Shown in pieces: positions 9,435-44,375 of a stretch of DNA of 64,000 nucleotides (its first letter is position 1; each line of letters starts with the position of its first letter). The stretch lies in contig NZ_CP100595.1 of NCBI RefSeq assembly GCF_024267655.1, forward strand, positions 1,798,001 through 1,862,000, written 5' to 3'. A model generated the notes under the pieces. It did not search any database and was not told where the DNA came from. It saw only the letters and a list, made by a program, of their open reading frames with translations. The DNA is from Arcobacter roscoffensis (GTDB lineage Bacteria > Campylobacterota > Campylobacteria > Campylobacterales > Arcobacteraceae). Made by a program: the position numbers and the translations under genes.

Positions 9435-10191
9435 CTTTTTCTCTTTTCTTCTTATATTTTTTTAATTTCTTCTCATTTATTTTCTCAAGTAGTGCAGATG
9501 TAAAAATACTGCCAGGAATTGCATAAAAAGCAATTCCTAGAAAACTAACAATTGTGGTCAAAATTCTACCCATAACAGTAACTGGATACATATCCCCATA
9601 ACCAACAGTTGTAAAAGTAATAACAGCCCACCACATAGTAGTAATCATACTAGTAAAAACTTCAGGTTGTGCATCTTTTTCAAAATAATAAACCAAAGGA
9701 GTGATGGTTAAAAGTAGTACAAAAAGTACTATAGTAATAAAGAAAAACTCTTCTTTTTTCTCTTTTATAATTGAGCTTATTAAATTATCAAATTCTCCAA
9801 ACTTAGCTAATCTAAATAACTTAAAAATTCTTAGAATTCTCAAAGCCCTTAAAAAACCAAAATCAAGATTAAACATAGATAAATAAAAAGGTAAAATCGC
9901 GATTAAATCAATAATCATAAAAGGTCGTAAAATATACTTTACACGAGTTAGTTTCGGTTTATAAGTAATACTATAAACCCTAAGCATATACTCAATAGTA
10001 AATAAAAATACATTGATAAAATTTATAGTACTTAGTATCTTGAAATATTCAGATAAACTCTTTTCTGTTTGTAAAAACAAAACTGCAATACTTATAAATA
10101 TATTTAAAAATATAGCTACTTGTATAATAGTTCCATATTTATGTTTTCTTGGATTTTCAAAGATAATATATAGTTCTTGTTTTAAGTTCAT
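9427..10191 (-). CDS. Voltage-gated-type potassium channel, six membrane helices
   Basis: The 254-residue protein is a single-subunit cation channel of the Kv-like superfamily. It has six hydrophobic segments. The fourth carries regularly spaced arginines (LRALRILRIFKLFRLAKFG), the voltage-sensor pattern, and the pore has TVGYGD near residue 197, the K+ selectivity filter. A short basic C-terminal tail follows and no RCK/TrkA domain is present. It overlaps the start of dgt by 8 bases. Gating and physiological role are not shown by sequence. Confidence 0.9.
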   Translation of the reverse strand: MNLKQELYIIFENPRKHKYGTIIQVAIFLNIFISIAVLFLQTEKSLSEYFKILSTINFINVFLFTIEYMLRVYSITYKPKLTRVKYILRPFMIIDLIAILPFYLSMFNLDFGFLRALRILRIFKLFRLAKFGEFDNLISSIIKEKKEEFFFITIVLFVLLLTITPLVYYFEKDAQPEVFTSMITTMWWAVITFTTVGYGDMYPVTVMGRILTTIVSFLGIAFYAIPGSIFTSALLEKINEKKLKKYKKKREKDD

Positions 10192-10309
10192 AAGTTCTTT
10201 ATTTTATTGGATTTTTAGTAATAATTTATCTTATCAGCTTCCAACTTACACTTTGGTTTATTATTTTTTAAAAAAACTAATATATAATTGGATTTTTAAA
10301 GGATATAAG

Positions 10310-10477
10310 ATGTTTGAAAAAATCAAAGAGTTTTTTAAAGAAGAAGAAAAGTTTCCTTGTATAGTTTGGGATGGTAAGATGATGAAATACCTTGATTTAA
10401 CTCAAAAACAAATAGATGAAATAAATAACGACCCTAAATATGAAGAATGGACCGCTACTAAAAAGGATGAGTGCTAA
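10310..10477 (+). CDS. Small conserved-looking hypothetical protein (55 aa)
   Basis: The ATG at 10310 follows AAAGG at good spacing and opens a 55-residue acidic/basic protein beginning MFEKIKEFFKEEEKF. Longer in-frame extensions upstream run back through the promoter region and antisense to the channel gene, so they were rejected. No membrane segment or known motif is seen. Its stop overlaps the first codon of the aat frame, suggesting coupled translation, but no role can be inferred beyond that pairing. Confidence 0.6.
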   Translation: MFEKIKEFFKEEEKFPCIVWDGKMMKYLDLTQKQIDEINNDPKYEEWTATKKDEC

Positions 10478-11154
10478 AATATATGGAATTATTAGATAAA
10501 GAATATGGAATATACTTATTAGACTTAGATAATTATGAGTTTCCAACACTTAGTATGATGAAAGATGATTTAGTTGCAGTTGGAGGAGATTTTCATCCAC
10601 AAAGACTTATAAATGCCTATTCAAATGGACTTTTCCCTTGGTTTATAGATGAATATAATCACATACATTGGTACAGTCCAAATAAAAGAATGATACTTTA
10701 TCCAAATGAAATGAAAGTATCAAAAAGCCTTAAAAAATCCATAAAAAACAAAGGCTTCGTAGTAAAAACAAATGAAAACTTTGAAGAAGTTATGAAAAAC
10801 TGTGCAAAAATAAAAAGAAAACATGAAGATGACACTTGGATAAATGATGACTTTATTCAAGCTTATACCAACTTATATAAATTAGGATATGCCTACTCTA
10901 TTGAGACTTATTTAGATGATGAGTTAGTTGGTGGATTATATGGGGTTTTAATAGATGATGTATTTTGTGGGGAAAGTATGTTTTCAAAAGTAAGTGATGC
11001 TTCAAAGGTAGCCTTTTATCACTTATGTAAACAAGCCCAAGAAAATGACATAAGACTAATTGACTGCCAAGTACATAATGAGCACTTAGCAAGTCTTGGA
11101 GCTTATGAAATACCAAGAGAAGAGTATTTTAAGATTTTATATAAAAAGAATTAA
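10471..11154 (+). CDS. aat: Leucyl/phenylalanyl-tRNA-protein transferase
   Basis: Aat adds Leu or Phe to N-terminal Arg or Lys of proteins, marking them for ClpAP (N-degron pathway) in the cytoplasm. Family motifs are clear: LVAVGGDFHPQRLINAYSNG, FPWF, WYSPNKRMIL, WINDDFIQAY and GGLYGVLIDDVFCGESMFS. Length (about 223-227) fits. Two starts are possible: GTG at 10471, three bases after AAGGA, or ATG at 10483, fifteen bases after it. GTG is given here because the ribosome site is nearer, but ATG 10483 is not excluded. The gene is convergent with the Wadjet operon, six bases apart. ClpS/ClpA are not in the window. Confidence 0.9.
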   Translation: MLKYMELLDKEYGIYLLDLDNYEFPTLSMMKDDLVAVGGDFHPQRLINAYSNGLFPWFIDEYNHIHWYSPNKRMILYPNEMKVSKSLKKSIKNKGFVVKTNENFEEVMKNCAKIKRKHEDDTWINDDFIQAYTNLYKLGYAYSIETYLDDELVGGLYGVLIDDVFCGESMFSKVSDASKVAFYHLCKQAQENDIRLIDCQVHNEHLASLGAYEIPREEYFKILYKKN

Positions 11155-11160
11155 ACCTTT

Positions 11161-12306
11161 TTATATATTATCTACATTTATAAACTCTTGATCTAAAAAG
11201 AGTTTTTTTTCTTTTAAAAATGGAATCAAAAACTCATTACAATAATTACAGGATGTACTTAAAGTCAACTTTTGATTTTGCTTTTTTGCATCTTCAAGAA
11301 AGTGTGCATTTCCTTTTAGAACTTCTTTTATCATCAAATCATATGCAGGAACAAAAGCTTTTAAAAAGACGAAATTTCTTTGAAGTTTTTCAAGTATTGA
11401 AATACCCTCAAAATCTAAATCACCCCAAAAATAAAGTTCTTTATCGTTTTGATTACTATAAAACCAAGAGATAAAAGTCTCTTTTGTTTTTTGATTTAGT
11501 TTACACTCATTATTAAAAAAGAGTTTTGAGCCATCTTTTACTCTTAGTCTTTTAGCAGTTGCTTTATATCCATGGGCATTTATCAAAATATACTCATCAA
11601 AGATTTTATTTTTGCTTTCTATACAAGTAGTAAAAGTCTCTAAGTTTTCTATAAAAAGTATTTTTGAAGCACTAGCACTTTTTCCAAAAACATGAAGAAG
11701 TACTGGTTTTTCTCTTAAATCAAAATATTCACAAAAGTCTGTTTTATTATCAAATAATTTTGACATACCCCAAAAACATTTGGCTGATTCATGTCTTATA
11801 AGTTTTGATTTATTACTAGTTTCTACCCAAACTTTTAGTTTTTCTAAAACTTCTTTATTTGTTTTTCCTTCTATAAAAAATGGTGATTTCTCTAAAACCT
11901 CAAATAATCTACTATTTTCTTCAAAATAGTTTTTTAACTCTTCACTCCATGATTGTTTTTGAGATTTTAGTTTTGGTCTTTTGTAAACTTCTCTTAGTAA
12001 ATCCTCTTTTTCATTGTTGAAAATAAGCTTGGCATTTCTTTTTTCAACTAAAGGTGTAAATTCATCTTTTTTAGTAGCATTTTTTAGTTCAAAAATATCA
12101 TTATCTAATAAAACTTTTATATCAAACTCTAAATCAATATCTTCATTAAATTCACTTGGAAAATATAAGGCTAAGAAGTTTTTATCATTTAGAGCAAAAG
12201 AGATTTTATTTGCTCTTTTTGCTTGTTTATCAAACTTATCTAAGACTTCATTTAGTATTTTTGATAAATGAGGATTTTCAAAAGCTTTTTGAAGATTATT
12301 GTTCAT
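11161..12306 (-). CDS. jetD: Wadjet nuclease subunit JetD (DUF3322/DUF2220, Toprim-type)
   Basis: JetD (MksG/EptD) is the topoisomerase VI-A-like nuclease of the Wadjet complex; the family cuts small circular DNA after loop extrusion by the SMC subunit. The 381-residue product has an N-terminal region of the DUF3322 type and a C-terminal Toprim-like domain. That domain shows a conserved glutamate in LFIENLETF (about residues 217-225) and the acidic GDLDFEG (295-301), the metal-binding pair. It is the last gene of jetABCD, and overlaps jetC by 11 bases. Length and gene order match type I Wadjet systems. Confidence 0.9.
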   Translation of the reverse strand: MNNNLQKAFENPHLSKILNEVLDKFDKQAKRANKISFALNDKNFLALYFPSEFNEDIDLEFDIKVLLDNDIFELKNATKKDEFTPLVEKRNAKLIFNNEKEDLLREVYKRPKLKSQKQSWSEELKNYFEENSRLFEVLEKSPFFIEGKTNKEVLEKLKVWVETSNKSKLIRHESAKCFWGMSKLFDNKTDFCEYFDLREKPVLLHVFGKSASASKILFIENLETFTTCIESKNKIFDEYILINAHGYKATAKRLRVKDGSKLFFNNECKLNQKTKETFISWFYSNQNDKELYFWGDLDFEGISILEKLQRNFVFLKAFVPAYDLMIKEVLKGNAHFLEDAKKQNQKLTLSTSCNYCNEFLIPFLKEKKLFLDQEFINVDNI

Positions 12307-15300
12307 ATACTTTTTCTGCTTTTTGTTTTGCTATTTCAAATAAGTCTTTTTCTTCTTTCTCAAATAGTTTTTTCACCATTGAATTATTTCTTATTTTAAA
12401 CTCTGCATATGTTGTATAATCAAGTTCACTTAAAGGGTTTGACTTTCCTGGATGATGAACAAAGTGATAGTTAGTAGACTCAATTTCATAAAAAGTTCCT
12501 ACATTTTTTGTAGGCATGGCACATATTACTTGAAAACCTAAACTCTCATTTAAATAGCTTAAAATCTCTTTTGATCTTTTTTCATTTGACTTTAAAAAAC
12601 TCTCATCAATAATAATTGATTCTAAAGAACTAATAGCAGCTTCAAGAGGTTTTAGGGCTGATTGTAGGTTTATTGATCTTATTATATAGTATGAAGTTTC
12701 ACCCTGACCACCTGAGTTTTTACCATTTCGACTTAAAGAGATACTATTTCCATCTATTTCTTGATAAATATCATAGTTGTTATAGTTTCTATAATCAGAT
12801 ATTCTAATAAGCTCATTTATATGCTTTTCATTATCCATAAACTTATCTAAAAGGGCTTTTGAGATATGTTCAAAACCTTGCTTATCTAAAGCCTCAAAAA
12901 GTGAGTTTTCATCTAAATTTGTTTTTGTTTCATGAATTGCTTTAAAGTACTCTTCATACTGTTTTAACTCTTCATCAGCAGGAAATCTTCTAATTTTATA
13001 TGTTTCATTTCCAAACTTATGCTTTCTTAGGGTTTCATTTAACCTATCAATAGCACCCTCACCTTGTCTAATATTTGTATAAATGGCATTACAAAAGTCA
13101 TTTAAGAAAATATTTTTAAACTGCTTATCTGCACTTTCAATATCTTTTTTATATTTAAAAGTTAAAGAGTTGTTTTTAACATCGATTTTTTCAAGTAAAT
13201 CTTTTCTAAAGGTAAGCAATTCATTAAAGTGCTCTTCACATAAAACAAGCTCTTCAAAAGTCAAAGGCTTAGGTAAAGCTACTTTCCCAAGTAGATTTTG
13301 ACTTGTAAAATAGCTATCAAAATTATGATGTAGGTTTTTTAGGCTCTCAAAAATATTTTCCGATAAACTATAATCCTTTTTTATATCAATTCTATCTAAG
13401 ATATTTTTTTCATAGTTTTCAAAACCTATATTAGTTTCAACTACTAATTTATTGTAAATTATTTGGAACATATATCTTGAGGCTTCTAGTTTTTTGATTT
13501 TATCTTCTAAATCTTTTTGGTTTGTTTGTTCTACTCTTGTTTTTTCATTTAAAGACCTAGTATCTGCTCCTACTTCTTGATTTAAAGCAGTTGTTTCGTA
13601 TTTTATGCTCTCTTTTCTTTTATTACATTCTTGGATTTGTTTTATGATTTGATCATAATCAGAAGTATCTATTAAAGCTTTTAACTCTTTTGTTTCATGA
13701 TAAATTTTATGATTGTAAGAAATATTTGAAATATCTTCAATATTTACAAGTTTATTTTCGCTTTTTAATGTGGATAAAACTCTTTTTACTTTATTTAAAA
13801 TATCAATATTACTTGTGATGGAATCTGAGTCTTTTTCTAAAAGTTCTAATTCATCTTTCATTTTCATAAGAGTTCTTCTTTGAGCTTCTTGCCCAAAAAT
13901 AAATCTTTGGTCTTTTAACTTACAAGTAAAAAGCAAGTTAGAACTAGCTGCTTTACAATCTTTTGTAATTCCTCTTTTTATCATAGGTAAAACAGATGAG
14001 TCATTTACTTGTAAAACTTCTGAATATGTACAAATCAAGTAAGCCAAAGCCTTTTCATCTGAAACTTCAAGTAGATTAATTATAGAGTCTTCATGTACAG
14101 CTTTTCCTCTAAAAGACAGCTCTTCTAAAACTTTCTTACCTTGAATAATCTTTAGCTTTAAATCATGTTGTTTTACTACTTCAATAGCTTGACTTTCATA
14201 TTGGCTTGATACAATTACTGCAAATCTATTATTTGATATATATCCTTCAATAGCCTCTCTCCAAGATTCATCTTTTAGTTCAATAAATTCATAAAGTAAA
14301 TGAACATTTGCTTTTGGGAGTAGTTTTCTTAGATTTTCAACTGAATTTTGAATATGCTGTGGGCAGTAGTATTGAGTCTCTTCAAGAGTTTTTATTTCAC
14401 TTTTTAAAGTAGCTACTTTTTCATCTAAGTCATTGTTTTTTACGATAAGCTTTTTATACTCATCTTCTAAGTTTTCTTTTTGCTCATTAAACTCAAAAGA
14501 ATCAACTAAACTACTATAACTATCTTCTAATTTTTCAAGCATAAGTCTAAAGTTTGTTATTTGATAGTCTATATCAGATGTATCAATATTACTATTTATA
14601 AAATATGTATTAAAAGAGTTATTTACAAACTCTTCTAAAAGTACTTTAAACTCAGATAATAAAATACAAAGCTCTTCAAACTGTTCTGGGTTTTTAAAAA
14701 CCATATTTACATCATTTGAGATACTCTCAATTTTTCCAACAAGTCTCATACTATTTGAAAAAGCTGTATTGAAATTTTTTCGTGATTCATCTAGTTTAAA
14801 CTCTATAGATTCAAGTTCTTTTACCTTATCGTTACTTTGTTTTGAGATATTTAAATCTATAAGTTTTTCATCTAAACTTTTTTGTTCTTCATCTAGTTTA
14901 TTTAAGGCTCTTTGGGATTTTTTTATTTGCTTTTCAAGTTTTTCATACTTTTTTTCATCTTGTATTATTTTATTTTTCTGTTTTAAAACATCATAATGAC
15001 AAAAGGTAAAATGCTCTTCTCCTAGAACTTGCCATTTTTTAATCAAAGCATAAAGTTTTGAGTCTAACTTATTTAAAATTTCAATTGAATCTTCGATTTC
15101 TCTTGCGTCTTTTTTTAACTTATCCAAAGATCGAATAGTATTTGATAAAGAGTTTACTTCTTCTTTCATGTTTTTTGAAGCTAAAAACTCATTTCTTACA
15201 AAGCTGTTGATATTTTCAACTGGTCTTGCATGAATAAAATTAGCAAATGCCTTAGCGGCTTTTGTAGATCGTGATGATATAGTTTTTAATCTTCCCCATA

Positions 15301-15880
15301 AAGTACCATATAAAGAGTTTAAGTAGTCAAGCTTGTCTGTACAATGAATAACATTATCTTTGTCATATTTATTACAAAGGCTTTTATATAATTCTGCATG
15401 ATTTAATAACTGCCCTTTTTCATTTGAAAAGTCTTCTTTAACAAGCTGGGTATTTCTAATAATATAAAACTTCAAACTATCAAGTTTTGGTTTTTTCTCA
15501 CCCTTTGACTCTTCAAAATCTACACTTCCAGTAATCAAAGCAGAAAAACAAGCCTCTTCTTCTTTAGGTGAGTTTTGAAAAGTCAATGCAATAGTACTTC
15601 TACATCCAGTTGGTCTTGAGAATTTAAATCTATCTTCACCTGCAAAATAACCTTGAAGTGTTCTATACTCTTTATTTCTTTTTTTGTTTTGAGCTTCATC
15701 TTGCCCTGCATTGTATTTTACAATTCCATTTTTTGAAGCTGTCATCAAAGTTTGAATTGCATCAAGCATAGTACTTTTACCAACACCTGTTTCACCTGTT
15801 AAAAAAACTAAATCAGATAAATCATACTCTCTATTTGGAATATTTGACCAGTTCGCAAGGATTAATTTACTCATTTTCAT
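12296..15880 (-). CDS. jetC: Wadjet SMC-like ATPase JetC (MksB/MukB-like)
   Basis: JetC is the SMC-type motor that extrudes DNA loops and so distinguishes small circular plasmids. The 1194-residue protein has Walker A LTGETGVGKST at about residues 28-37. Long charged heptad-rich arms fill the middle, around a hinge-like globular segment near 500-640. An ABC signature (SGGQGE, about 1055-1060) and a Walker B segment (SIIIDES, about 1088-1094) close the head. Length is that of MukB/MksB-type condensins, not of SbcC. It overlaps jetB by 14 bases and jetD by 11, so subunits are made together. Confidence 0.93.
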   Translation of the reverse strand: MKMSKLILANWSNIPNREYDLSDLVFLTGETGVGKSTMLDAIQTLMTASKNGIVKYNAGQDEAQNKKRNKEYRTLQGYFAGEDRFKFSRPTGCRSTIALTFQNSPKEEEACFSALITGSVDFEESKGEKKPKLDSLKFYIIRNTQLVKEDFSNEKGQLLNHAELYKSLCNKYDKDNVIHCTDKLDYLNSLYGTLWGRLKTISSRSTKAAKAFANFIHARPVENINSFVRNEFLASKNMKEEVNSLSNTIRSLDKLKKDAREIEDSIEILNKLDSKLYALIKKWQVLGEEHFTFCHYDVLKQKNKIIQDEKKYEKLEKQIKKSQRALNKLDEEQKSLDEKLIDLNISKQSNDKVKELESIEFKLDESRKNFNTAFSNSMRLVGKIESISNDVNMVFKNPEQFEELCILLSEFKVLLEEFVNNSFNTYFINSNIDTSDIDYQITNFRLMLEKLEDSYSSLVDSFEFNEQKENLEDEYKKLIVKNNDLDEKVATLKSEIKTLEETQYYCPQHIQNSVENLRKLLPKANVHLLYEFIELKDESWREAIEGYISNNRFAVIVSSQYESQAIEVVKQHDLKLKIIQGKKVLEELSFRGKAVHEDSIINLLEVSDEKALAYLICTYSEVLQVNDSSVLPMIKRGITKDCKAASSNLLFTCKLKDQRFIFGQEAQRRTLMKMKDELELLEKDSDSITSNIDILNKVKRVLSTLKSENKLVNIEDISNISYNHKIYHETKELKALIDTSDYDQIIKQIQECNKRKESIKYETTALNQEVGADTRSLNEKTRVEQTNQKDLEDKIKKLEASRYMFQIIYNKLVVETNIGFENYEKNILDRIDIKKDYSLSENIFESLKNLHHNFDSYFTSQNLLGKVALPKPLTFEELVLCEEHFNELLTFRKDLLEKIDVKNNSLTFKYKKDIESADKQFKNIFLNDFCNAIYTNIRQGEGAIDRLNETLRKHKFGNETYKIRRFPADEELKQYEEYFKAIHETKTNLDENSLFEALDKQGFEHISKALLDKFMDNEKHINELIRISDYRNYNNYDIYQEIDGNSISLSRNGKNSGGQGETSYYIIRSINLQSALKPLEAAISSLESIIIDESFLKSNEKRSKEILSYLNESLGFQVICAMPTKNVGTFYEIESTNYHFVHHPGKSNPLSELDYTTYAEFKIRNNSMVKKLFEKEEKDLFEIAKQKAEKVYEQ

Positions 15881-16541
15881 TTGAAATATCCTTGTGTTCA
15901 GTTGTATTTACTTCATCTTTTTCTAAAAATGGCTTTAGCATATCAGGTAAAATTACTTGTTTAATATATGGTCTTATGATTAATGGAGCATCTTCACTTT
16001 CAAAAACACCTTTAGCATAATTTAAAACCTTTAGTCTTCTTAAAGTTCGTAAAGCCTCATCCCTTACAGACTTATTTTCATTTGCACTATATGAAAGATA
16101 TGAAGCTAGTGCTGTGTTAAACTCTTCAAGTTCCACTTCAACACTTGCATCATCTTCTATTTGACCTTCATTGAACTTTTGATTATATAAAATTGCTAAG
16201 GCTATTAAATAAGCACTCTCTTCACTACTTAAAGACATTGACATATTAGATTTTATATCATCATCCAAATAAGACTGGGGAAAATCAGAACCAGGAGCAT
16301 AAAGTCGTATTGATAATAAATCTTCATCATGTACTACATTTATATTTATAAGATTCAAATAGTCTTTGATAATACTTTCAAGTCTTAAAAAATTATCATA
16401 ATACTTTTCTTCTTTTTGAGAGTCTTCCCTACAGATTACGCCATTTTCTAAAAGATATGATGTAATATCTTGAAAATCTTCCAAATCAAGCCCTGCCTCA
16501 TTTACAAGCTCTACAAATTCATTATAAATACTACTTGCCAC
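15867..16541 (-). CDS. jetB: Wadjet kleisin-associated subunit JetB (DUF4194)
   Basis: JetB (MksE-like) is a small winged-helix subunit that binds the kleisin JetA. The 224-residue product is acidic, mostly helical, and lies between the JetA kleisin and the SMC ATPase with 11- and 14-base overlaps, exactly the expected position. The stretch LRTLRRLKVLNYAKG near residues 160-175 looks like the winged-helix recognition part. The last 15 residues are polar and probably disordered. Assignment relies on position, length and general composition more than on a catalytic motif; there is none to expect. Confidence 0.85.
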   Translation of the reverse strand: MASSIYNEFVELVNEAGLDLEDFQDITSYLLENGVICREDSQKEEKYYDNFLRLESIIKDYLNLININVVHDEDLLSIRLYAPGSDFPQSYLDDDIKSNMSMSLSSEESAYLIALAILYNQKFNEGQIEDDASVEVELEEFNTALASYLSYSANENKSVRDEALRTLRRLKVLNYAKGVFESEDAPLIIRPYIKQVILPDMLKPFLEKDEVNTTEHKDISNENE

Positions 16542-17934
16542 TATTTTCCTTTTTTGTGATTATATATTCATCTGTCTCAAAATATATATTTTTACTTCTA
16601 TTTTTTGTATATCTTACTTCAAACTTCTCATTATCATGTTTGATTATGTCACTTGCATATAAAGAGATAAGCAAGTCTTTTACACTATTTATTTCAAAGG
16701 CATTATTTGATATTTTTGTTTTATCTGCTTCTTCAAAATGTTTATTTAAAAACTCATCTATCTCTTTTTGAGAAAATGAAAAAGCCAAATGCTTTTGTTG
16801 TTCAAAGGTACTTTTTACATAAGCTTCTTTTGGCATTGTAAGTTCAGGTGAAAGAAAACTCACTATTTCATTTTTTTTAGCTTTTCTTCTAATTTTCACA
16901 TTTGATAGATTTAAGATTTTTAGATTTGGGAATTTTACTGCTTTTCCTATATCTTCTAAAAGTTTCTCTTTTTCTTCTTTATTTTTAGTTTTTATAATCT
17001 TAGCAACTTCACTTATTTCTTTATTTTTATTAAAAAATAAAGAGTTTGTTTGCCTAAAGATCACTGTTCCTCTTTGAACATAAGAAGAGACTTCCCTTTT
17101 TAATAAAGGCAATTTAGTATCGCAGGCATTTTTAAGCCTGAAATCAATAGCATCTAAGATATTTTTTAAAGCATTTGGATTGTTTTTATACATAGGAAAA
17201 TGAGCCAATAGTTTTTTTTGTCTCTTATCTAAACCTTCAATACTTAAATCTCTTACAATATCTTCAATATCTAAGATATATCTATTTGCTGAATCCTTAC
17301 CAAACTTAACAGCAATATCAGAAGCAAATTTATCTTTTACAAAATCTATAAACTTTCCACCTGCTACTTTTACATCTTCCATAGCAAGTTTCATAAGAAG
17401 GTTTTTCTCTTCTCTAACATCATTTATGTTATCTGTTAAATCTGAAACAATATATTTTGAGAAATTTATAGCATCTATTAAATCAGCGGGATCATCTGAC
17501 TTTTTATAAGACTCTAAAGAAGCCTTTGTAGCTCTTACATTTCTTTGTCTTGTTGAAATATTCTCTTCATCACTTGCAGCATATAAAGTTTGTGCAAATT
17601 TTTTACCATTTTTAGTGAAGTTAAAAGTTTTGATTAATAAGGCTCTATCCATAATAAAATCAATCCAACCACAATCTTTTAGTCTTCTTAAAATATAAGA
17701 GGCTTTATCTTTTTCATTATCAAAGTTTGTATCACTATTATCATTTTGCCATGGGTTTTCTTGAAGAACTGAGTATATAATATCTCTTGCTTTTTTTCGA
17801 CCTATTACTTCATCTACAATAAAATCATTCCCATATAAAGAAGAGTAAAGCCTTATTATTGAAGACTCAACTATATGAGCGTTTGCACCTGTTAGAACAT
17901 TAAAAAAATCTGGATTATTTTGGGTTGTAAGCAT
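16531..17934 (-). CDS. jetA: Wadjet kleisin subunit JetA (MksF-like)
   Basis: JetA is the kleisin that closes the SMC ring in type I Wadjet. The 467-residue, mostly helical protein starts with a segment typical of the family (FFNVLTGANAHIVESSIIRLY). It contains a basic N-terminal helical bundle, a middle region and a C-terminal winged-helix-like part (SVKDLLISLYASD). It is the first gene of the operon. An A/T-rich 63-base gap separates it from the terminator of the HD-GYP gene, so the operon promoter should lie there. No sign of truncation. Confidence 0.87.
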   Translation of the reverse strand: MLTTQNNPDFFNVLTGANAHIVESSIIRLYSSLYGNDFIVDEVIGRKKARDIIYSVLQENPWQNDNSDTNFDNEKDKASYILRRLKDCGWIDFIMDRALLIKTFNFTKNGKKFAQTLYAASDEENISTRQRNVRATKASLESYKKSDDPADLIDAINFSKYIVSDLTDNINDVREEKNLLMKLAMEDVKVAGGKFIDFVKDKFASDIAVKFGKDSANRYILDIEDIVRDLSIEGLDKRQKKLLAHFPMYKNNPNALKNILDAIDFRLKNACDTKLPLLKREVSSYVQRGTVIFRQTNSLFFNKNKEISEVAKIIKTKNKEEKEKLLEDIGKAVKFPNLKILNLSNVKIRRKAKKNEIVSFLSPELTMPKEAYVKSTFEQQKHLAFSFSQKEIDEFLNKHFEEADKTKISNNAFEINSVKDLLISLYASDIIKHDNEKFEVRYTKNRSKNIYFETDEYIITKKENSGK

Positions 17935-30416: not shown

Positions 30417-32507
30417 CTATCTTTTCTTCCAAATACTCATTTGAGATACTGTATGTTGGTATTTTCTATTTGTTTCTTTTATCACAAAAGGTACATCTAT
30501 AGTATCAAGTAGTTCATACCTATCTTCTAGGTTTTCTTTTAGAGTATCAAGTGTTTTTACTTCTTTGTTATCTTTGATATATCCACCAAGCCAGTTTTTC
30601 TTTGGTGTATAATCTTCTAGCCATGTGTATGGTGAAAGCAGTACTAAAAGTCCGTTTTGATTTACTCTATTTGGTACATCATCTAAGAACTTTTGAGGAT
30701 AGTATAGTCTATCTATTAGGTTTGAACAGAAGATTAAATCATATCCTGTATATAGGTCTTTTAGATTACAAGCATCACCTTGCATAAATGTAACTTTGTC
30801 TTTTGTATCTTCTAAATCAAAGTCTTTTAAAGATACTGTTTTTTCATCAAAAAGCTCACCCTCTGTTTTTACTTTAAACACAAGAGAGTCATATTTTTTA
30901 AGTTTTACACCTACATTGATAAAGTTTGCACTAAAGTCAATACCTAAAACCTCATCAAAAGTTTTTGCTAACTCAAAAGTACTTCTACCTACACTAGAAC
31001 CTAAATCCATAGCTTTTTTAGTATCTACACCATCTAAATAAGGTTTTAATAAATCCACAGAGTTTTTAGGGAAGTTTTTAACTCCGAAGTTCTCAGCACC
31101 ATAGTGGAACTCACAATATTGAGAGATTAAATCATCTGTTTCATATACATTGTCATTTAGTTTTGTTCTACATTCATTGTCTGATTGTACATATCTAAAC
31201 CCTGCATGCTGGAAGAAGTGCTTTCTAAAAGCATATCTTGCACTCTTTAGAGTTTCATTTCCAAGTGAGATAAAAGAACCACCTTTCATAAGTGCATGTC
31301 TATCATCAAAAGTTGGTGTCGTAAAATCATCATAAATAGGATGTGTTATAAAATCATCAAATGGATATGTAGGAGTTATACTCCACTGCCATACATTACC
31401 AACCACATCATAAAACTCATCAAACTTATACTTATCCACAGGAGATTGATTAAACTGCTTAAGTCCAATATTTGCTTTTTTTTGCCCTGCATTTGTGTAG
31501 TCATAAAGTCTGTAGTATTCATCTTCGCTTGGAAGCCTTACTTCATATCCAAGTTTATTACTTAGGTATTTACAGAAAGCTTCTGCTTCATAAACATTTA
31601 CATCAACTGGATAGTTTAAAGGTAAAGGTATTACTCTGTTTATCTCTCTAAGATAGTATCTTCCTTCTTTTTTTACCCAAAAAGTAGGATGTTTTGCTTG
31701 TGAGAAGTCTAACCACTCTTTTCCTTCTTCACTAAATAGTTCAGGTTTATTATATCCACCCTCTTTTACAAACTCTAAAAACTCACCATTTGATACTAAG
31801 TATTTTGAAGCCTTGAAGTCTTTGATATTAGCTTTATGGAATGAAAACTCATTATCCCATCCATAGTAAACAGGGTTTTGTCTATCTTTTTCAAGTACAA
31901 CTTCTCCACCTTTTACTTCAACTAGTTCATTTGTAGGATAGTCATGGCTTTCTTCATTTTTGTATTCAAAAAGTTCATCATCACTCATGTATTTGATTTT
32001 AAGTTCTCTTAAAAGTACAGATGAAGTTTCAATATGGATATTTTCATGTTCAATTCCCATCATAATAATCCACATAGGAGATTCCCAATTTATAGGCATT
32101 GTAAACTCAATAGTATCTATTAAATCTAAAACTATTTGTTTTACTTTATCTCTATATGCTTTTGTTTCTTCTAATGTTGGCCATGTGTAGTGTTTTTTTT
32201 CTAAGTCATCCCATGACATCTCATCAACACCAATAGCGAAGATAGATTCATACTCTTTATTTACTCTATTTTGTAAAATATTTGCAAGTACTAGTTTATT
32301 TACAAAAAATGTAGCAGTGTGTCCATAATAGAAAATTAATGGATGTCTAAGTCTATTTGGTTGTTCGTAAATATTTTTTTCATCTTTTAGTAGGTCAAAC
32401 AACTTCTCATCTAGTTCATATGTTTGAAGAAAATAGTTTTTTATCTCTTCTCTTTTTTCTTCAATAGAACCTTGGGTTAAATCAATAGTATTCCTTATAT
32501 AATCCAT
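30417..32507 (-). CDS. ovoA: Ovothiol A biosynthesis enzyme OvoA (5-histidylcysteine sulfoxide synthase / methyltransferase)
   Basis: OvoA is a non-heme iron enzyme that joins cysteine to C5 of histidine with oxygen; its C-terminal domain then N-methylates 5-thiohistidine. The 696-residue product shows the three parts in order. First is a DinB-like N-terminal domain with HENIHIETSSVLLREL (about residues 172-187), providing iron-binding histidines. Next is a formylglycine-generating-enzyme-like domain (LPSEDEYYRLYDY, VVGNVWQWS, GGSF near residues 340-420). Last is a class I methyltransferase with MDLGSSVGRSTFELA near residue 475. Length and domain order separate it from EgtB, which lacks the methyltransferase. 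It is the last gene of an apparent four-gene unit. Confidence 0.92.
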   Translation of the reverse strand: MDYIRNTIDLTQGSIEEKREEIKNYFLQTYELDEKLFDLLKDEKNIYEQPNRLRHPLIFYYGHTATFFVNKLVLANILQNRVNKEYESIFAIGVDEMSWDDLEKKHYTWPTLEETKAYRDKVKQIVLDLIDTIEFTMPINWESPMWIIMMGIEHENIHIETSSVLLRELKIKYMSDDELFEYKNEESHDYPTNELVEVKGGEVVLEKDRQNPVYYGWDNEFSFHKANIKDFKASKYLVSNGEFLEFVKEGGYNKPELFSEEGKEWLDFSQAKHPTFWVKKEGRYYLREINRVIPLPLNYPVDVNVYEAEAFCKYLSNKLGYEVRLPSEDEYYRLYDYTNAGQKKANIGLKQFNQSPVDKYKFDEFYDVVGNVWQWSITPTYPFDDFITHPIYDDFTTPTFDDRHALMKGGSFISLGNETLKSARYAFRKHFFQHAGFRYVQSDNECRTKLNDNVYETDDLISQYCEFHYGAENFGVKNFPKNSVDLLKPYLDGVDTKKAMDLGSSVGRSTFELAKTFDEVLGIDFSANFINVGVKLKKYDSLVFKVKTEGELFDEKTVSLKDFDLEDTKDKVTFMQGDACNLKDLYTGYDLIFCSNLIDRLYYPQKFLDDVPNRVNQNGLLVLLSPYTWLEDYTPKKNWLGGYIKDNKEVKTLDTLKENLEDRYELLDTIDVPFVIKETNRKYQHTVSQMSIWKKR

Positions 32508-34744: not shown

Positions 34745-35308
34745 CTACTTTTTGATTCCTTCTTTTGCTAGTTTTTGCTGCATTGGGTCACTAAAGCTAT
34801 AAGTTCCCTGTTTTAATTCAAAAGGTAAATCCTCTAAACACTCCTTTTTAAACTGTTCTACAAAACTTGTATCATAGTTTTCAAAAGCATTTGTAAGTAT
34901 GTCTATATACTTTGCAGGAATAAAACAGTTTTCATTTCCTATTTTTGCTATTTTTTCTTCATTTGTTGTCATAAAAGCTACAACATCTTCATCAAGTTCA
35001 GCACCTATTACATCACAAGCTTTTATAGTAACTTGCGAGTAGTTTTTTTCTCTTAGTTTTAAGATTTCAAACTCTTGTGGAGTTACTTTTACAACAACTC
35101 CACTTGTTTGAGTAGTTTCATCTTTTTGAAGATTTAAAAACACTCCATTAACATCTACACCATCAAACTGGATATGCTCAATACTATTCCAAACTTTTTT
35201 AAAACCTTTAATTGTTACAGGAATTAAATCATCATAACTAAGCTCTCTCTCAAAAGATTTTTGAGCACTGTTTAAATTTATAAGTGAACCAAAACCGAAA
35301 AGATACAT
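34745..35308 (-). CDS. Gamma-glutamylcyclotransferase-like (GGCT/AIG2 fold) protein
   Basis: The 187-residue product begins MYLFGFGSLIN, matching the (Y/F)GSL substrate-binding loop of the GGCT fold, and has a glutamate in LKLREKNYSQV at the position of the catalytic acid. Known members release 5-oxoproline from gamma-glutamyl peptides or amines; the actual substrate here is unknown. Its start overlaps the rraA stop by one base and its stop abuts the next gene, so it is translationally coupled on both sides. A gamma-glutamyl enzyme in one unit with ovoA hints at low-molecular-weight thiol metabolism. Confidence 0.8.
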   Translation of the reverse strand: MYLFGFGSLINLNSAQKSFERELSYDDLIPVTIKGFKKVWNSIEHIQFDGVDVNGVFLNLQKDETTQTSGVVVKVTPQEFEILKLREKNYSQVTIKACDVIGAELDEDVVAFMTTNEEKIAKIGNENCFIPAKYIDILTNAFENYDTSFVEQFKKECLEDLPFELKQGTYSFSDPMQQKLAKEGIKK

Positions 35309-35787
35309 TACACTAAACTCTCTTTTGAAACAACTACACCATCAGGATCAACATAAATATAATCACCTTCATTGATTGTTACACCATCAATTGTAAGAGC
35401 TACATTCATTTGAGCGTCTTGAACTGGTATATATTTTCTAGGACAAGTTCCTTTTGCTAAAAGTCCTGTTTGAAACTCTTTTGTTGTAACAGTATCTCTT
35501 ACATAACCATTTACAATAAGCCCTTCAAAGTGATTGTCGTCTGCGAACTTCATTAAGTTATCACCAACAACTGCATAGTATTTTTCTTCAACATCTACAA
35601 CTACTACTTTTCCTTCACCCTTATTTTCTTTTAAAAACTTAGCTAAATCTTTGTTGTTTTTATCTAGTTTAAAAGTAATAGCTGTGCCTCTGAATTTTTT
35701 ACTTCCCCCATATGATTTAAAGTTTGGTCCTAAAACCTCCGTTTTCTCGCTGTGCTCATCACATAAATCTGCTGTAAAAAATCCCAT
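35308..35787 (-). CDS. rraA: RraA-family protein (RNase E regulator / 4-hydroxy-4-methyl-2-oxoglutarate aldolase fold)
   Basis: The 159-residue protein matches the RraA family along its length: TADLCDEHSEKTEVLGPNFK at the start, VVVDVEEKYYAVVGDNL, GLIVNGYVRDT and GDYIYVDPDGVVV at the end. The family forms trimers or hexamers; E. coli RraA inhibits RNase E, while others are class II aldolases that need a GxxxxxxxxxxxRD-type active site (here NGYVRDT). Either role is possible; RNase E is usually absent from Campylobacterota, which weakens the regulator reading (known biology, not seen here). It is the first gene of the four-gene unit with ovoA. Confidence 0.87.
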   Translation of the reverse strand: MGFFTADLCDEHSEKTEVLGPNFKSYGGSKKFRGTAITFKLDKNNKDLAKFLKENKGEGKVVVVDVEEKYYAVVGDNLMKFADDNHFEGLIVNGYVRDTVTTKEFQTGLLAKGTCPRKYIPVQDAQMNVALTIDGVTINEGDYIYVDPDGVVVSKESLV

Positions 35788-39409: not shown

Positions 39410-39823
39410 ATGAAAGTAGTAACTGGCGTAGTTGGAAACGACATCCACGTAGTAGCAAACAGACTAATTGACCTTTCACTTCAAGCAAGAGGCTTTGAGG
39501 TATTTAACCTTGGAGTTAACACTTACTTAGAAGAGTTTATTGATGCAGTAATTGAAACAAATGCAGATATATTATTAATCTCATCATTAAACGGTGAAGC
39601 TGAGGGTTGGGCAAGAGAACTTAAGATTTTAAAATCAAAGTATGGAAATCTTTTAGATGATGTAGTATTTATGATTGGTGGTAACTTAGTAGTTGGAACA
39701 GGAAGTGCAGATGATATTGTTCCAAGATTTAAAAACTATGGTTTTGATTTAGTATTCCACCAAGTGGATTTAAATACTGGTTTAGATGAATTAGAAAAAT
39801 TCATGGAAGGTAGAAAAAACTAA
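39410..39823 (+). CDS. glmS: Glutamate mutase sigma subunit (B12-binding)
   Basis: With GlmE this binds adenosylcobalamin and rearranges L-glutamate to (2S,3S)-3-methylaspartate. The 137-residue product aligns end to end in memory with clostridial GlmS/MutS: VVGNDIHVVANRLID, ETNADILLISSLNGEAEG, VVFMIGGNLVVGTG. In the cobalamin motif DxHxxG the aspartate (D11) and cobalt-coordinating histidine (H13) are kept, while the glycine is alanine (A16). The Ser-Ser-Leu and GGN loops that cradle the nucleotide tail are present. It is first in the operon; its stop overlaps the glmE start by one base. Confidence 0.9.
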   Translation: MKVVTGVVGNDIHVVANRLIDLSLQARGFEVFNLGVNTYLEEFIDAVIETNADILLISSLNGEAEGWARELKILKSKYGNLLDDVVFMIGGNLVVGTGSADDIVPRFKNYGFDLVFHQVDLNTGLDELEKFMEGRKN

Positions 39824-41187
39824 TGAGTTTATTACAAGAAGAAAGAAATATTATATTAAATAATGAGCATGTAGATAACTTTGATTTTGCAGAAGTTGAA
39901 GATTTTGTAAAAAATGCTTCAAAAGATCTTTTTATCTCTCATAATTTTAAAACAAAAAATAAAATGTTGGTACAACCAAGAGGTGGATTTCCAACATATG
40001 ACAAAATGTTTGCTTTATATGAGTTTTTTGATAAGGCTGACGTTGATGTTCTTCCATGTACAGTTGATTCAAATACAAGACTAAATGACTATGAAACAGC
40101 AAAAAAGATGCTAAGACTTAGTGAAGAAAATGAAGTTGATATGTTAAATGGTTATCCATTAGTAACACATGGATACAGAACATCAAGAAAAATGATGACT
40201 CATTTTAACAAACCTATTTCATTAAGACACGGTACTCCTGATGCAAGACTTTTAATAGAAACTGCAATAGCATCTGGTATTTTTGAGATTGAGGGAGGAC
40301 CTATTACATACCTTCTTCCTTACTCTAAGAACTTCCCACTTGATAAGGCATTTTTATATTGGAAATATGTAGAGAGAGTTTGTGCGAAATATTCAGTTTT
40401 AAATGAACCTATAAATAGAGAGTCATTTGGACCTTTAACAGCTACTTTAGTTCCACCTTGTATTACTATCGTAATTCAGTTATTAGAGATGTTATTATCA
40501 CTTGAAGAGGGAGTAAAATCTTTCTCTGTATCATTCTCTCAAACTGGTTCTATGAATCAAGATATTGTAATGGGTGCAGTTATCAAAAAACTTGCAAAGC
40601 ATTATGCAAATGAGATTAACTGTGGTGATGCTGATATTCACTTAGTATATCATCAATGGATGGGTGCTTTCCCTATGGACTCTAACTACGCATCTGAACT
40701 TATTTCTATGAGTACAGTTATTGCTGCAATGGTTGGAGCTAATAAGCTTATTACAAAAACAAATCAAGAAGCTTCAGGTATTCCTACAAAAGAAGCAAAT
40801 GCTGAAACAGTAGCAAATACACAATATCTTCTTAGAATTTTAAATGGTCTTCCAAATGTAGTTGATCAAGAAGAGGAAGAGAACTTAACAGCAGAAGTTA
40901 TGGCTATTATGGAAGCTGTATTCAATGACCCTGCTGATACTTTATGGAGAAAAGTATTTAACTCTATTAAAAATGGAACTATTGATGTTCCATTCTCTCC
41001 TCATATTATCAATAACAATGAAATGATTACAATTAGAGATAAAAACAAGAATATTAGAATCATAAAAAGAGGAAAAGTTCCAATTCCAGATAAGTGTTTT
41101 GAGTATGAAAAAGCTCAATGTGACTTAAAAAAAGATACTACATCAATAGTAAATGATATTATCCATGATATAGGAATTATGCAATGA
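39823..41187 (+). CDS. glmE: Glutamate mutase epsilon subunit (catalytic)
   Basis: The TIM-barrel catalytic subunit that holds glutamate for the radical rearrangement. The 454-residue product matches the family: VQPRGGFPTYD, CTVDSNTRLNDYE, NGYPLVTHGYRTSRK, LRHGTPDARLL, IEGGPITYLLPYSK, INRESFGPLTATLVPP, HQWMGAFPMD and SGIPTKEANAET. The arginines that bind substrate carboxylates in the clostridial enzyme appear kept (in VQPR, TRLND and GYRTSR), as does the Glu of IEGG. The N-terminus is some 30 residues shorter than clostridial GlmE. It overlaps glmS by one base and glmL by four. Confidence 0.92.
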   Translation: MSLLQEERNIILNNEHVDNFDFAEVEDFVKNASKDLFISHNFKTKNKMLVQPRGGFPTYDKMFALYEFFDKADVDVLPCTVDSNTRLNDYETAKKMLRLSEENEVDMLNGYPLVTHGYRTSRKMMTHFNKPISLRHGTPDARLLIETAIASGIFEIEGGPITYLLPYSKNFPLDKAFLYWKYVERVCAKYSVLNEPINRESFGPLTATLVPPCITIVIQLLEMLLSLEEGVKSFSVSFSQTGSMNQDIVMGAVIKKLAKHYANEINCGDADIHLVYHQWMGAFPMDSNYASELISMSTVIAAMVGANKLITKTNQEASGIPTKEANAETVANTQYLLRILNGLPNVVDQEEEENLTAEVMAIMEAVFNDPADTLWRKVFNSIKNGTIDVPFSPHIINNNEMITIRDKNKNIRIIKRGKVPIPDKCFEYEKAQCDLKKDTTSIVNDIIHDIGIMQ

Positions 41188-42389
41188 GCCAAGTAAAGCA
41201 AAATACAAATGATAAACTTTTAATCGATGTTGGAAGTACTTATTTTAAACTAAGTACTACAAAGGGTGTGGAACAACACTTTAGAGATTTTAATAAAGAT
41301 ATTTATGATGATTTAACTTATAAGTGTGGTGAAACAATTAATAATTATAAAAAAGAAGATGTATTTATTTGTTCTTCTGCAAACGGTGGTTTAAGTACAC
41401 TTATTATTGGAGTTACAAACTCTTTTTCACTAAAGTATGCTACAAATATCGCTTTTAATTCAGGTATTAATATCATTGATACAGTGCTTTATAAAGATAT
41501 TGAAGAAACATCAATACCAAGTGAATTAATAGATGTTGTTATAGTTGTTGGTGGAATTGATTCTGTAAGTGGTATGTTTGATGAAAAACTATTTAAATTT
41601 TTAAATGATGTAAACTACTCAAATATTGTTTTTGTAGGAAGTAGTAAAGATGCACCTTATTTAAGTGAAAACATTGAAAACTTAAGTGTTTTACCAAATA
41701 TTATTACAAATAAACTTCATGTTGAAGAAGAGAATTTAAAAGAGTATTTAACAAACCTTTATCAAGCTGATATTATGGGTAAAGAAGACATCAAACACTT
41801 ATATGATATTACTTCAAATCAAATCTACTCAACACCATATATTGTAAATAAAACTCTTCCTCAAATAGGAAGTAAGTTTACAGTTGCAGACCCATATATC
41901 CTAATAGATATTGGTGGGGCTACTACTGATATTCACTACTCAAAAGATTTAGTAGATGAAAATATGGTTACCGAAAATGAGTATGATAGACTTGTATTTA
42001 AAAAACTAGGTGTTTACAAATCAAAAGAATCACTAATCTTTGCAGCTAAAAACAATGAGTTTGTTTATGAGTTACTTGCGCACTTAAAAGTTACAGAAAA
42101 CATCCTTGAAGAGCAAAGTCCTAAAGCAACAGTTATTTTAATGCAATTAGCAATATTCTTAGTTTTATGTAAGGTATCAACTTATGTAAACTCATATGTA
42201 AATATCAAACTTTTAGTTTTAAACTCTATAGTCTTTACAGGTGGTATTACTAAGGTTTTAAAGCCGAAAGAAATTGAAGATATTGTATCATTTTTCTATC
42301 AAAAAATACTAAACTCTGAGCATAATCCAAATGTAGTTATGGATAACAACTATGATATTTGGACACTTGGCGTAAATGAAAAAAAATAA
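41184..42389 (+). CDS. glmL: Glutamate mutase-associated ASKHA protein GlmL (MutL-type reactivase)
   Basis: The 401-residue protein is an actin/Hsp70-like ATPase of the MutL/GlmL group, thought to exchange damaged cobalamin on glutamate mutase. The phosphate-1 loop is LLIDVGSTYFKLS near residue 12; the phosphate-2 loop is ILIDIGGATTDIHYSK near residue 239; an adenosine-loop-like IVFTGGITKVL lies near 350. It is shorter than clostridial MutL (about 460). The ATGA overlap with glmE ties its synthesis to the mutase. This is not the mismatch-repair MutL despite the shared name. Confidence 0.88.
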   Translation: MSQVKQNTNDKLLIDVGSTYFKLSTTKGVEQHFRDFNKDIYDDLTYKCGETINNYKKEDVFICSSANGGLSTLIIGVTNSFSLKYATNIAFNSGINIIDTVLYKDIEETSIPSELIDVVIVVGGIDSVSGMFDEKLFKFLNDVNYSNIVFVGSSKDAPYLSENIENLSVLPNIITNKLHVEEENLKEYLTNLYQADIMGKEDIKHLYDITSNQIYSTPYIVNKTLPQIGSKFTVADPYILIDIGGATTDIHYSKDLVDENMVTENEYDRLVFKKLGVYKSKESLIFAAKNNEFVYELLAHLKVTENILEEQSPKATVILMQLAIFLVLCKVSTYVNSYVNIKLLVLNSIVFTGGITKVLKPKEIEDIVSFFYQKILNSEHNPNVVMDNNYDIWTLGVNEKK

Positions 42390-42401
42390 GAAGGAACAAA
42401 A

Positions 42402-43973
42402 ATGTCTATAAATAGTATTAGAACATTATTAGAAGACTCTGCAGTTTCACATCCAAGTAAAACTGCTATAGTTTTTAATGAAAAAAGTATTTCATATGAA
42501 GATTTACTTAAAAAAGTAAATCAAGTTGCCTTTTATTTAAAAGAATTAGATTTACCAAAAGGTTCAAGAATTGGTTTATACTCAAACAAGGGTATAGATC
42601 AAGTTATAGCAATATTATCAATACTTTCTACTGATTATATACTTGTTCCCCTAACTAGACTTCTAAAGCCTGAGCAAGTTCAATATATAATCAATGATTG
42701 TGATATAAAATGTATCATCACTGATAGGTTAAAACTTGAAAGTATAGAAGAAATTGACTTCAATGGTCATATAATTTCTTATGAAACTGCCCATAAAGAT
42801 ATTCCATCATTTGAAGAAATTTACAAATACTATAACAAACCATTTAAGCATGATGTAAATGGGCATGAAAATGCTGTTATCACTTATTCTTTTGGTATTA
42901 CAGGTCAACCTAAAGGTATTGTTATATCTCATAGAAATCTAATAGATTCAGCAAGAGTTGTATCTCAATATTTAGAACTTAGAGAAGAAGATGTGATTTC
43001 AGGAACATTAATCTTTAATCTTGATTATGGATTAAATCAAATTTTCTGTTCTCTTTACAAAAGGGCAACACTAGCATTACATAGATTCATACTAGCAGGA
43101 GACTTCTATAATCACTTGATAAATGATAAAGTAACTGTAGTTCCTTTAATGCCTGTAAATATTTCAAATATGTTTGATGAAGATGAACATAGACTTCCAA
43201 GTTCAGACTTACTTTCAAATGTAAGAGTACTTACTTCATCAGGAGGAAATGTAACTGTAAAAATGTTAAAAGGATTAGACAAGCTTTTCCCTGATGCAAA
43301 GTTTTATTCAATGCATGGATTAACAGAAGCTTTTAGATCTACGTACCTAGACCCATCACAAATTCATATAAGACCTGATTCAATTGGAAAAGCTATTCCA
43401 GATGTAGAATTATATGTTATAAACGAAGAAGGGAAAGAGTGTAAGCCAAGAGAAGTTGGTGAACTAATTCACAGAGGTGGTTATATATATAGAGGTTTTT
43501 GGAATGCTCCTGTAGAAACTGCTCAAAGATTTAAATCAATTCAAATCTTAAAAGATGTAATAGATTTAGAAGGACAATTAACTGATGAAATAGTTGTAGC
43601 AACAGGTGATTATGTATACAAAGATGAAGAAGGTTATTTTTACTTTGTATCTAGACATGATAACATGATAAAAACAAGAGGATTTAGAGTAAGTCCTTAT
43701 GAAATTGAATCAGTAGTTGCAAATAACTTACCTCAAATTGAACAATGTGCAATCTTTTCTGTTCCAAATGAAGAAATAGAAGAAGAGATAGTTATGGTTT
43801 ATTCAAGTAGAAGTGAACTTGCACCAAAAGAGATAACATTTGAGCTTAAAAAACATCTTGCATCTTATATGATTCCTTCAAAAATAATCTATAAAAAATC
43901 TCTTCCACTAGTGCCTAGTGACAAAAATAAAATAAATAAAGAAGAGTTAAAAAACGAACTTCTAGAAAAATAA
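42402..43973 (+). CDS. AMP-forming acyl-CoA ligase / adenylating enzyme
   Basis: The 523-residue ANL-superfamily enzyme activates a carboxylate as acyl-AMP, then usually loads CoA or a carrier thiol. Motifs: ITYSFGITGQPKGIVISHRN (A3; Phe and Ile stand where the usual TSGSTG has small residues), MHGLTEAFRS (A5), ATGDYVYKDEEGYFYFVSR (A7) and a lysine in NKINKEEL (A10). The MHGLTEAFRS and IRPDSIGKAIP stretches resemble the ligases linked to exosortase A clusters and amino-acid-type substrates. It lies 12 bases after glmL with AAGAAGGAAC before the ATG, and a terminator follows; its substrate is plausibly a glutamate mutase product, which is inference. Confidence 0.85.
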   Translation: MSINSIRTLLEDSAVSHPSKTAIVFNEKSISYEDLLKKVNQVAFYLKELDLPKGSRIGLYSNKGIDQVIAILSILSTDYILVPLTRLLKPEQVQYIINDCDIKCIITDRLKLESIEEIDFNGHIISYETAHKDIPSFEEIYKYYNKPFKHDVNGHENAVITYSFGITGQPKGIVISHRNLIDSARVVSQYLELREEDVISGTLIFNLDYGLNQIFCSLYKRATLALHRFILAGDFYNHLINDKVTVVPLMPVNISNMFDEDEHRLPSSDLLSNVRVLTSSGGNVTVKMLKGLDKLFPDAKFYSMHGLTEAFRSTYLDPSQIHIRPDSIGKAIPDVELYVINEEGKECKPREVGELIHRGGYIYRGFWNAPVETAQRFKSIQILKDVIDLEGQLTDEIVVATGDYVYKDEEGYFYFVSRHDNMIKTRGFRVSPYEIESVVANNLPQIEQCAIFSVPNEEIEEEIVMVYSSRSELAPKEITFELKKHLASYMIPSKIIYKKSLPLVPSDKNKINKEELKNELLEK

Positions 43974-43975
43974 TA

Positions 43976-44001
43976 AAAATGTAGCCAAATGGCTACATTT
44001 T
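43976..44001 (+). terminator. Intrinsic terminator of the glutamate mutase operon
   Basis: AAAATGTAGCC and GGCTACATTTT form a perfect 11-base stem with a 4-base loop, three bases after the ligase stop. It closes the four-gene unit and shows that the ligase is its last member. Confidence 0.9.
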
Positions 44002-44096: not shown

Positions 44097-44375
44097 ATGA
44101 AAAAATTAGTAGTAGCAGCGTCATTATTAACTGCATGTGTAGCATTTGCTAACCCTTATGCTAAATGTGTTGGTTGTCATGGTGCAAATGGGGAAAAAGT
44201 TGCAATGGGAAAATCTAAGATTATCAAAGATATGACAAAAGCAGATTTCATCGCAGCAATGAAAGGTTACAAAGATGGTTCATACGGTGGACCAATGAAA
44301 GGTTTAATGAAAGGTCAAGTTTCTTCTTTATCTGATGCAGATATCGAAGCAATTGCTAATCAAATAGCTAAGTAA
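44097..44375 (+). CDS. Periplasmic monohaem cytochrome c (c553-like)
   Basis: A 92-residue class I cytochrome c. A signal peptide (residues 1-18, ending AFA) is followed at once by NPYAKCVGCHG, the CxxCH haem site. A C-terminal methionine in the GLMKGQVSSLSD stretch would be the axial ligand, and the final helix DADIEAIANQIAK is typical. It carries electrons in the periplasm, most likely to a terminal oxidase. The ATG is preceded by AAGGAT at good spacing. It is monocistronic with its own terminator. Confidence 0.93.
   Translation: MKKLVVAASLLTACVAFANPYAKCVGCHGANGEKVAMGKSKIIKDMTKADFIAAMKGYKDGSYGGPMKGLMKGQVSSLSDADIEAIANQIAK

Follow-up and report, generated by a model that had tools for sequence, protein, structure and literature searches.

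We analysed a 64,000-nucleotide stretch (the window) of the complete 3.15-Mb genome of Arcobacter roscoffensis, which carries a four-gene operon for the two subunits of a glutamate mutase, a reactivating ATPase and a ligase-like protein of the ANL superfamily. The best explanation of the operon as a whole, to which we give about an even chance, is that the mutase makes 3-methylaspartate and that the ligase binds this compound and most likely activates it. On this explanation the gene set is a mobile metabolic module, distinct from the glutamate-fermentation operon.

A conserved mutase and ligase operon

The first gene, glmS (39410–39823, + strand), encodes the 137-residue cobalamin-binding subunit of glutamate mutase, identified by Pfam B12-binding and by NCBIfam, where it scores 155.8 bits against a cut-off of 110. 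It overlaps by one base with glmE (39823–41187, +), which encodes the 454-residue catalytic subunit (Pfam Met_asp_mut_E, E 2.8e-115); this in turn overlaps by four bases with glmL (41184–42389, +), encoding a divergent, 401-residue reactivating ATPase of the MutL/GlmL family (Pfam MutL, E 4.5e-25). After a gap of 12 bases comes the gene for the ligase (42402–43973, +), a protein of 523 residues (Pfam AMP-binding, E 4.6e-60) with a VinN-type pocket and atypical A3 and A10 motifs. These coordinates and family matches bear out a sequence-only reading of the window, except that it had described the operon as fused to the ligase: the genes are adjacent and separate. GlmE passes the Pfam cut-off and falls slightly below that of NCBIfam TIGR01503 (374 vs 390.1 bits), GlmL is far below its NCBIfam cut-off (69.8 vs 475 bits), and the ligase is below that of its nearest model, TIGR03098 (435.6 vs 592.35 bits). 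Since all three score below these cut-offs, we assign the proteins by sequence to a divergent glutamate-mutase-like subfamily, and not to the TIGR01503 equivalog.

The eight substrate and catalytic residues of Clostridium cochlearium GlmE (R66, R100, R149, E171, Y177, Y181, K326 and E330; structures 1CB7 and 1I9C) are all present in an alignment to 6H9E/1CB7, and are invariant in the sampled orthologs; overall identity to the fermentation-operon counterpart is about 35%. GlmS keeps the D and H of the cobalamin motif DxHxxG, with the G replaced by A in all sampled orthologs, and has the SSL and GG (GGN) motifs. Because the glutamate mutase active-site residues are conserved, GlmS and GlmE would be expected to convert glutamate to 3-methylaspartate.

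The occurrence of the genes was examined in 299 genomes of the order Campylobacterales. MutE is present in 61 of them (about a fifth) and a ligase ortholog in 62, and every one of the 61 mutase genomes has both. The order glmS-glmE-glmL-ligase is intact in all 20 Campylobacterales loci compared, one of which has a 4.5-kb insert. Scanning of genomes yielded 80 named loci, with glmS detected in some by tblastn; in the 60 that had sufficient upstream DNA for the order to be judged, it is again intact without exception. The four-gene arrangement is far beyond chance, because the order holds in 20 of 20 and 60 of 60 loci and the co-occurrence in 61 of 61 genomes. Conservation of the order in relatives, on which the sequence-only reading had made its proposal depend, is therefore strong.

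The substrate pocket and ATP-handling motifs of the ligase

The A4–A5 pocket fragment of the ligase has as its top PDB matches VinN (3WV4/3WV5, 3WVN), with the specificity loop aligned free of gaps. VinN belongs to the vicenistatin pathway, where it attaches 3-methylaspartate to VinL, and VinO decarboxylates the 3-methylaspartate (PMC11284099). The VinN residue D230 contacts the β-amino group, and F231, S299, K330 and R331 lie in the pocket, which has a shortened loop (PMC11253843). The equivalent residues in the ligase are D208, Y209, S280, F311 and R312, and D208, Y209, S280 and R312 are invariant in 101 of 101 orthologs from Campylobacterota and Gammaproteobacteria. The features by which a VinN-type β-amino acid enzyme can be recognised are all found: the Asp, a bulky residue following it, the Ser, a short β13–β14 loop and the Arg. 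A homolog encoded on a Streptomyces yangpuensis plasmid, together with a mutase, a pyridoxal phosphate (PLP) decarboxylase and a polyketide synthase, has D-Y and K-R at the equivalent positions. Because the residues that match VinN are invariant in the orthologs, 3-methylaspartate, bound as a β-amino acid, is the likely substrate.

It could be argued that the ligase is an ordinary CoA ligase for fatty-acyl or aryl substrates and a neighbour of the mutase operon by accident; it belongs to the general AMP-binding family, and many acyl-CoA ligases are found among its remote matches. This is strongly disfavoured by the perfect co-occurrence and gene order across phyla. Furthermore, Asp208 is of the amino-acid type, the best overall matches are amino-acid adenylation domains and the best pocket match is VinN. 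We consider an ordinary CoA ligase very improbable.

The AlphaFold models of the ligase are middling, with mean pLDDT of 72 and 70 and much of residues 305–420 below 50, and the pocket assignments above therefore rest on sequence alignment. Comparison of the predicted model with VinN containing 3-methylaspartate gave Z 31.8 and a root-mean-square deviation of 3.1 over 340 residues, a result equalled by many other ANL structures; Foldseek and VIA-align confirmed the ANL fold and did not single out VinN.

Several findings weigh against activation of 3-methylaspartate by the ligase. The exosortase-associated TIGR03098 ligases have R312 and the loop sequence as well, leaving only the D-Y pair and the Ser specific to VinN; since those ligases share the Arg but carry D-A and T at the other pocket positions, the pocket is VinN-like beyond the family background at two positions. 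In all 101 orthologs the A3 phosphate loop reads Y-S/T-F-G/A-x-x-G-x-P-x-G instead of the usual TSGSTGxPKG, with F164 fixed throughout and Pro-Lys-Gly retained in 87. The A10 lysine position is K in 51 of the 101, Q in 32, R in 10 and another residue in the rest, and in 12 orthologs positions 507–511 contain neither K nor R; the A. roscoffensis ligase itself carries a lysine at 510. Thus the intact A3 and A10 motifs expected for the ATP half-reaction of a VinN-type enzyme are not found. In other ANL enzymes, adenylation suffers when the A10 lysine is mutated, whereas thioester formation is hardly affected (PMC11255334); K434 (A8) and K517 (A10) act in the two half-reactions (PMC11253843). The A8 thiolation residues R418, D420, K424, G427 and R429 are effectively invariant (one K424 reads X), as is the ribose-binding D403. 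Because the Lys, Gly and Arg of A8 are kept while A3 and A10 are altered, the ligase appears normal on the thiolation side and abnormal on the ATP side. The proposal in the sequence-only reading that the ligase activates 3-methylaspartate is thus well founded as regards the pocket, which matches VinN residue for residue, but adenylation is not to be presumed.

The remaining adverse findings concern the A. roscoffensis genome. It has no dedicated carrier, the sole PP-binding protein being the fatty-acid AcpP, which is encoded between fabF- and fabG-like genes, and no VinO/TIGR03099-type (exosortase-type PLP) decarboxylase above cut-off; the lack of both had already been remarked on for the operon. 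The best TIGR03099-type match lies in a gene that we take to be lysA, and was rejected as a dedicated PLP decarboxylase. A carrier fused to the ligase was likewise rejected: the 597-residue ligases of Granulosicoccus are start-codon extensions and not fusions to an acyl carrier protein (ACP). Finally, despite the presence of an adenosylcobalamin (AdoCbl) enzyme, a search of the genome for the CobA/BtuR type of adenosyltransferase, which did not extend to the PduO type, found none; the distribution of CobA/BtuR does not track with that of the mutase.

These features could also be explained by a repurposed ANL protein, which would form no adenylates from ATP and would retain the thiolation half of the cycle along with the amino-acid pocket; it could, for example, transfer 3-methylaspartyl groups, act as a sensor or serve the mutase as a partner. 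Such a role would account for a phosphate loop altered in every ortholog, around a fixed phenylalanine, and an unconstrained A10 lysine, while the pocket, D403, R418 and the A8 residues K424 and G427 stay fixed. However, the protein retains an intact and highly conserved fold and AMP-binding side, most orthologs have the Pro-Lys-Gly of the loop, about half (including A. roscoffensis) have the A10 lysine, and in many others the neighbouring lysine 508 could substitute for it. We regard repurposing as unlikely.

Partner genes and spread of the module

The operon has a partner that the sequence-only reading did not mention: a gene for a 159-residue RraA-like protein (35308–35787, − strand) of the RraA / 4-hydroxy-4-methyl-2-oxoglutarate (HMG) aldolase–oxaloacetate decarboxylase superfamily. 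It is present in 59 of the 61 mutase genomes and in 12 of the 238 others (Fisher p ~1e-47, with relatedness not corrected for). In 17 of 20 Campylobacterales loci it stands divergently beside glmS, and in 45 of the 60 named loci it is within 1 kb of the operon; in the window, four other genes separate it from glmS. The protein scores near the cut-off of RraA models and falls below that of a putative HMG aldolase model. The R-D pair that is needed for aldolase or decarboxylase activity in the RraA superfamily is kept, as it is in every one of the 71 copies that align there. Unlike known members of the RraA / HMG-CHA aldolase superfamily, this protein is linked to a glutamate mutase.

A second such partner is found in Gammaproteobacteria, where a class-I aspartate/aromatic aminotransferase gene lies upstream of the operon in 19 loci, in 18 of them tail-to-tail with the RraA-like gene, and its product co-diverges with the mutase. 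A search of Campylobacterales at 1e-40, run without a positive control, gave no member of this aminotransferase class, and for this reason the aminotransferase is no obligatory part of the module.

A rival reading built on the partners is a keto-acid route, in which 3-methylaspartate is transaminated to 3-methyloxaloacetate, the RraA-like protein decarboxylates this to 2-oxobutyrate, and the ligase is an accessory or regulatory 3-methylaspartate binder or serves a side branch. The old route from glutamate to isoleucine provides a precedent. The near-universal presence of the RraA-like gene with the mutase, mostly divergent by glmS and with the R-D pair in all aligned copies, speaks for such a route, as do the pairing of the aminotransferase with it and the co-divergence with the mutase. 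On the other hand, the aminotransferase is missing from Campylobacterales as described above, a ligase conserved in all 61 mutase genomes would be left without a job, and 2-oxobutyrate is already available: threonine dehydratase (ilvA) is above cut-off in 262 of the 299 genomes of the order and has a strong match in A. roscoffensis (E 3.9e-153). The mutase is therefore not a stand-in for a missing threonine dehydratase, and isoleucine synthesis from glutamate was rejected as the main purpose. The keto-acid route as a whole is in our view unlikely.

About half of the 80 named loci are from marine Gammaproteobacteria (Colwellia, Thalassotalea, Neptuniibacter, Halieaceae, Granulosicoccus, HTCC2143 and HTCC2148), with ligase identities of 73–79%; the closest ligases are from Arcobacteraceae (Arcobacter sp. 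UBA7394 and Halarcobacter). In a ligase tree with midpoint rooting and modest support, the gammaproteobacterial sequences are nested among those of Sulfurimonadaceae. Horizontal transfer between phyla is likely because the ligase identities between them are so high. The mutase is rare in the gammaproteobacterial order that includes Thalassotalea (2 of 198 above cut-off), which fits sporadic gain. Divergence of the ligase is correlated with that of the other operon proteins (r 0.75–0.86), and pairwise distances of the ligase, mutase, RraA-like protein and aminotransferase are correlated, which fits transfer of the module as a block. Single matches from Rhodothermales and Desulfobulbaceae may be mis-binned contigs.

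Three loci depart from the usual layout. In L048 (genome G163, 8344–17414), about 4.5 kb between glmE and glmL splits the operon, and the locus has no RraA-like gene. In a metagenome-assembled genome of Oceanospirillaceae (L130, 4268–5905), a gene read as a GH43-type glycosidase lies between glmL and the ligase gene. In L063, glmL is present as two open reading frames of 228 and 203 residues, possibly a frameshift or an assembly error.

An 11-bp hairpin found by the hairpin/terminator scan 3′ of the operon (43976–44001) is a probable bidirectional terminator. The sequence-only reading had the operon closed by one terminator; the hairpin is real, but its U-run on the plus strand is simply the TTTT of the stem, so that the scanner scores a terminator for the minus strand alone, and closure of the operon is therefore plausible and short of proof. 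Promoter-like sites do not exceed the number expected by chance. Directly downstream is a small cytochrome c gene (44097–44375, +), of which Arcobacteraceae-type loci carry one to three tandem copies at this position. A 696-residue protein (30417–32507, −), presumably an OvoA-type 5-histidylcysteine sulfoxide synthase (ovothiol), is encoded again close to the module in other Arcobacteraceae.

Relation to known systems and possible function

The clostridial/Prevotella fermentation operon (glmS-glmL-mutE-methylaspartate ammonia-lyase) has the same mutase subunits and reactivase family, but differs in gene order, which is S-E-L in the module, and in having the ammonia-lyase where the module has the ANL enzyme. 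The sequence-only reading had noted the lack of methylaspartate ammonia-lyase, and the wider search agrees: none was found in the whole A. roscoffensis genome and none convincingly in 20 other module-bearing genomes, 15 of which gave weak partial matches. Clostridial glutamate fermentation was rejected on this basis. Fermentation through mesaconate with a non-homologous ammonia-lyase encoded elsewhere would make use of the mutase in a pathway known from clostridia, and the Prevotella record places such genes together; with no ammonia-lyase seen in the examined neighbourhoods either, we think there is very little chance that it applies.

The vicenistatin set of Streptomyces (the glutamate mutase VinH/VinI with VinN, VinL and VinO) resembles the module in combining a mutase with an ANL enzyme that has a pocket for 3-methylaspartate as a β-amino acid. 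The D, aromatic, hydroxyl and Arg pocket positions agree with those of both VinN and the S. yangpuensis plasmid set, whose ligase homolog is about 25% identical. Unlike the vicenistatin set, the module has no dedicated carrier, PLP decarboxylase or polyketide synthase, its A3 and A10 motifs are altered, and GlmL and the RraA-like protein are added. The vicenistatin parallel that had been drawn from the sequence is thus partly supported: precursor and pocket are in common and the pathway is different.

The TIGR03098 exosortase A system-associated acyl-CoA ligases, such as those of Aureimonas (L056) and Sinorhizobium (L060), are the closest full-length family (the 435.6-bit match, about 35% identity) and share the stretches TEAFRSTYLDP and RPDSIGKAIP. 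They differ in having a normal TSGSTGKPKG and GK, and in their gene company, which consists of exopolysaccharide clusters with a TIGR03099 decarboxylase and an ACP. In L056 (8980–11780) and L060 (6926–10056), ligases of this family with the carboxylate-binding Arg of VinN are encoded near an ACP, and in L056 also near a PLP decarboxylase; for these reasons, the substrate that TIGR03098 ligases activate may be an acidic amino acid, to be decarboxylated afterwards.

Plasmid-borne glutamate mutase genes (L053, L054 and L059) have other neighbours: aspartate kinase and aspartate-semialdehyde dehydrogenase in Streptomyces NBC_01343, and asparagine synthetase A in Methylobacter YRD-M1 (with an EamA transporter) and Streptomyces ITFR-16 (with a non-ribosomal peptide synthetase). 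These contexts suggest other uses of 3-methylaspartate, such as 3-methylasparagine.

For the module itself, our preferred explanation would work as follows. AdoCbl-dependent GlmS and GlmE, kept active by GlmL, would convert L-glutamate to (2S,3S)-3-methylaspartate, as their conserved active site implies. By analogy with VinN, the ligase would bind this as a β-amino acid, with D208 holding the amine and R312 the C1 carboxylate, while Y209 and S280 push the substrate so as to present its C4 carboxylate for activation. The product would most likely be 3-methylaspartyl-4-adenylate, followed by a thioester on a putative acceptor, either CoA or the housekeeping ACP. Gene association suggests that the RraA-like protein, joined in some Gammaproteobacteria by the aminotransferase, may act on the same carbon skeleton or its keto acid.

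A bolder proposal, which we put forward as tentative and rather doubtful, is that this is a widespread, horizontally moving marine module in which B12-made 3-methylaspartate is handled by an ANL enzyme without canonical ATP adenylation and by an RraA-type aldolase or decarboxylase, so that B12-dependent glutamate metabolism would have a new branch leading to a product not yet described. We found no description of the operon in the open-access literature. Amino-acid fermentation and a few antibiotic clusters are the known settings of glutamate mutase; the module is a third, conserved one, with neither a dedicated carrier nor an ammonia-lyase. If the ligase handles 3-methylaspartate, the operon would represent a B12-dependent pathway whose product is named in no source that we found, and the changes in A3 and A10 make the ligase a test case for ANL enzymes that lack the usual ATP machinery.

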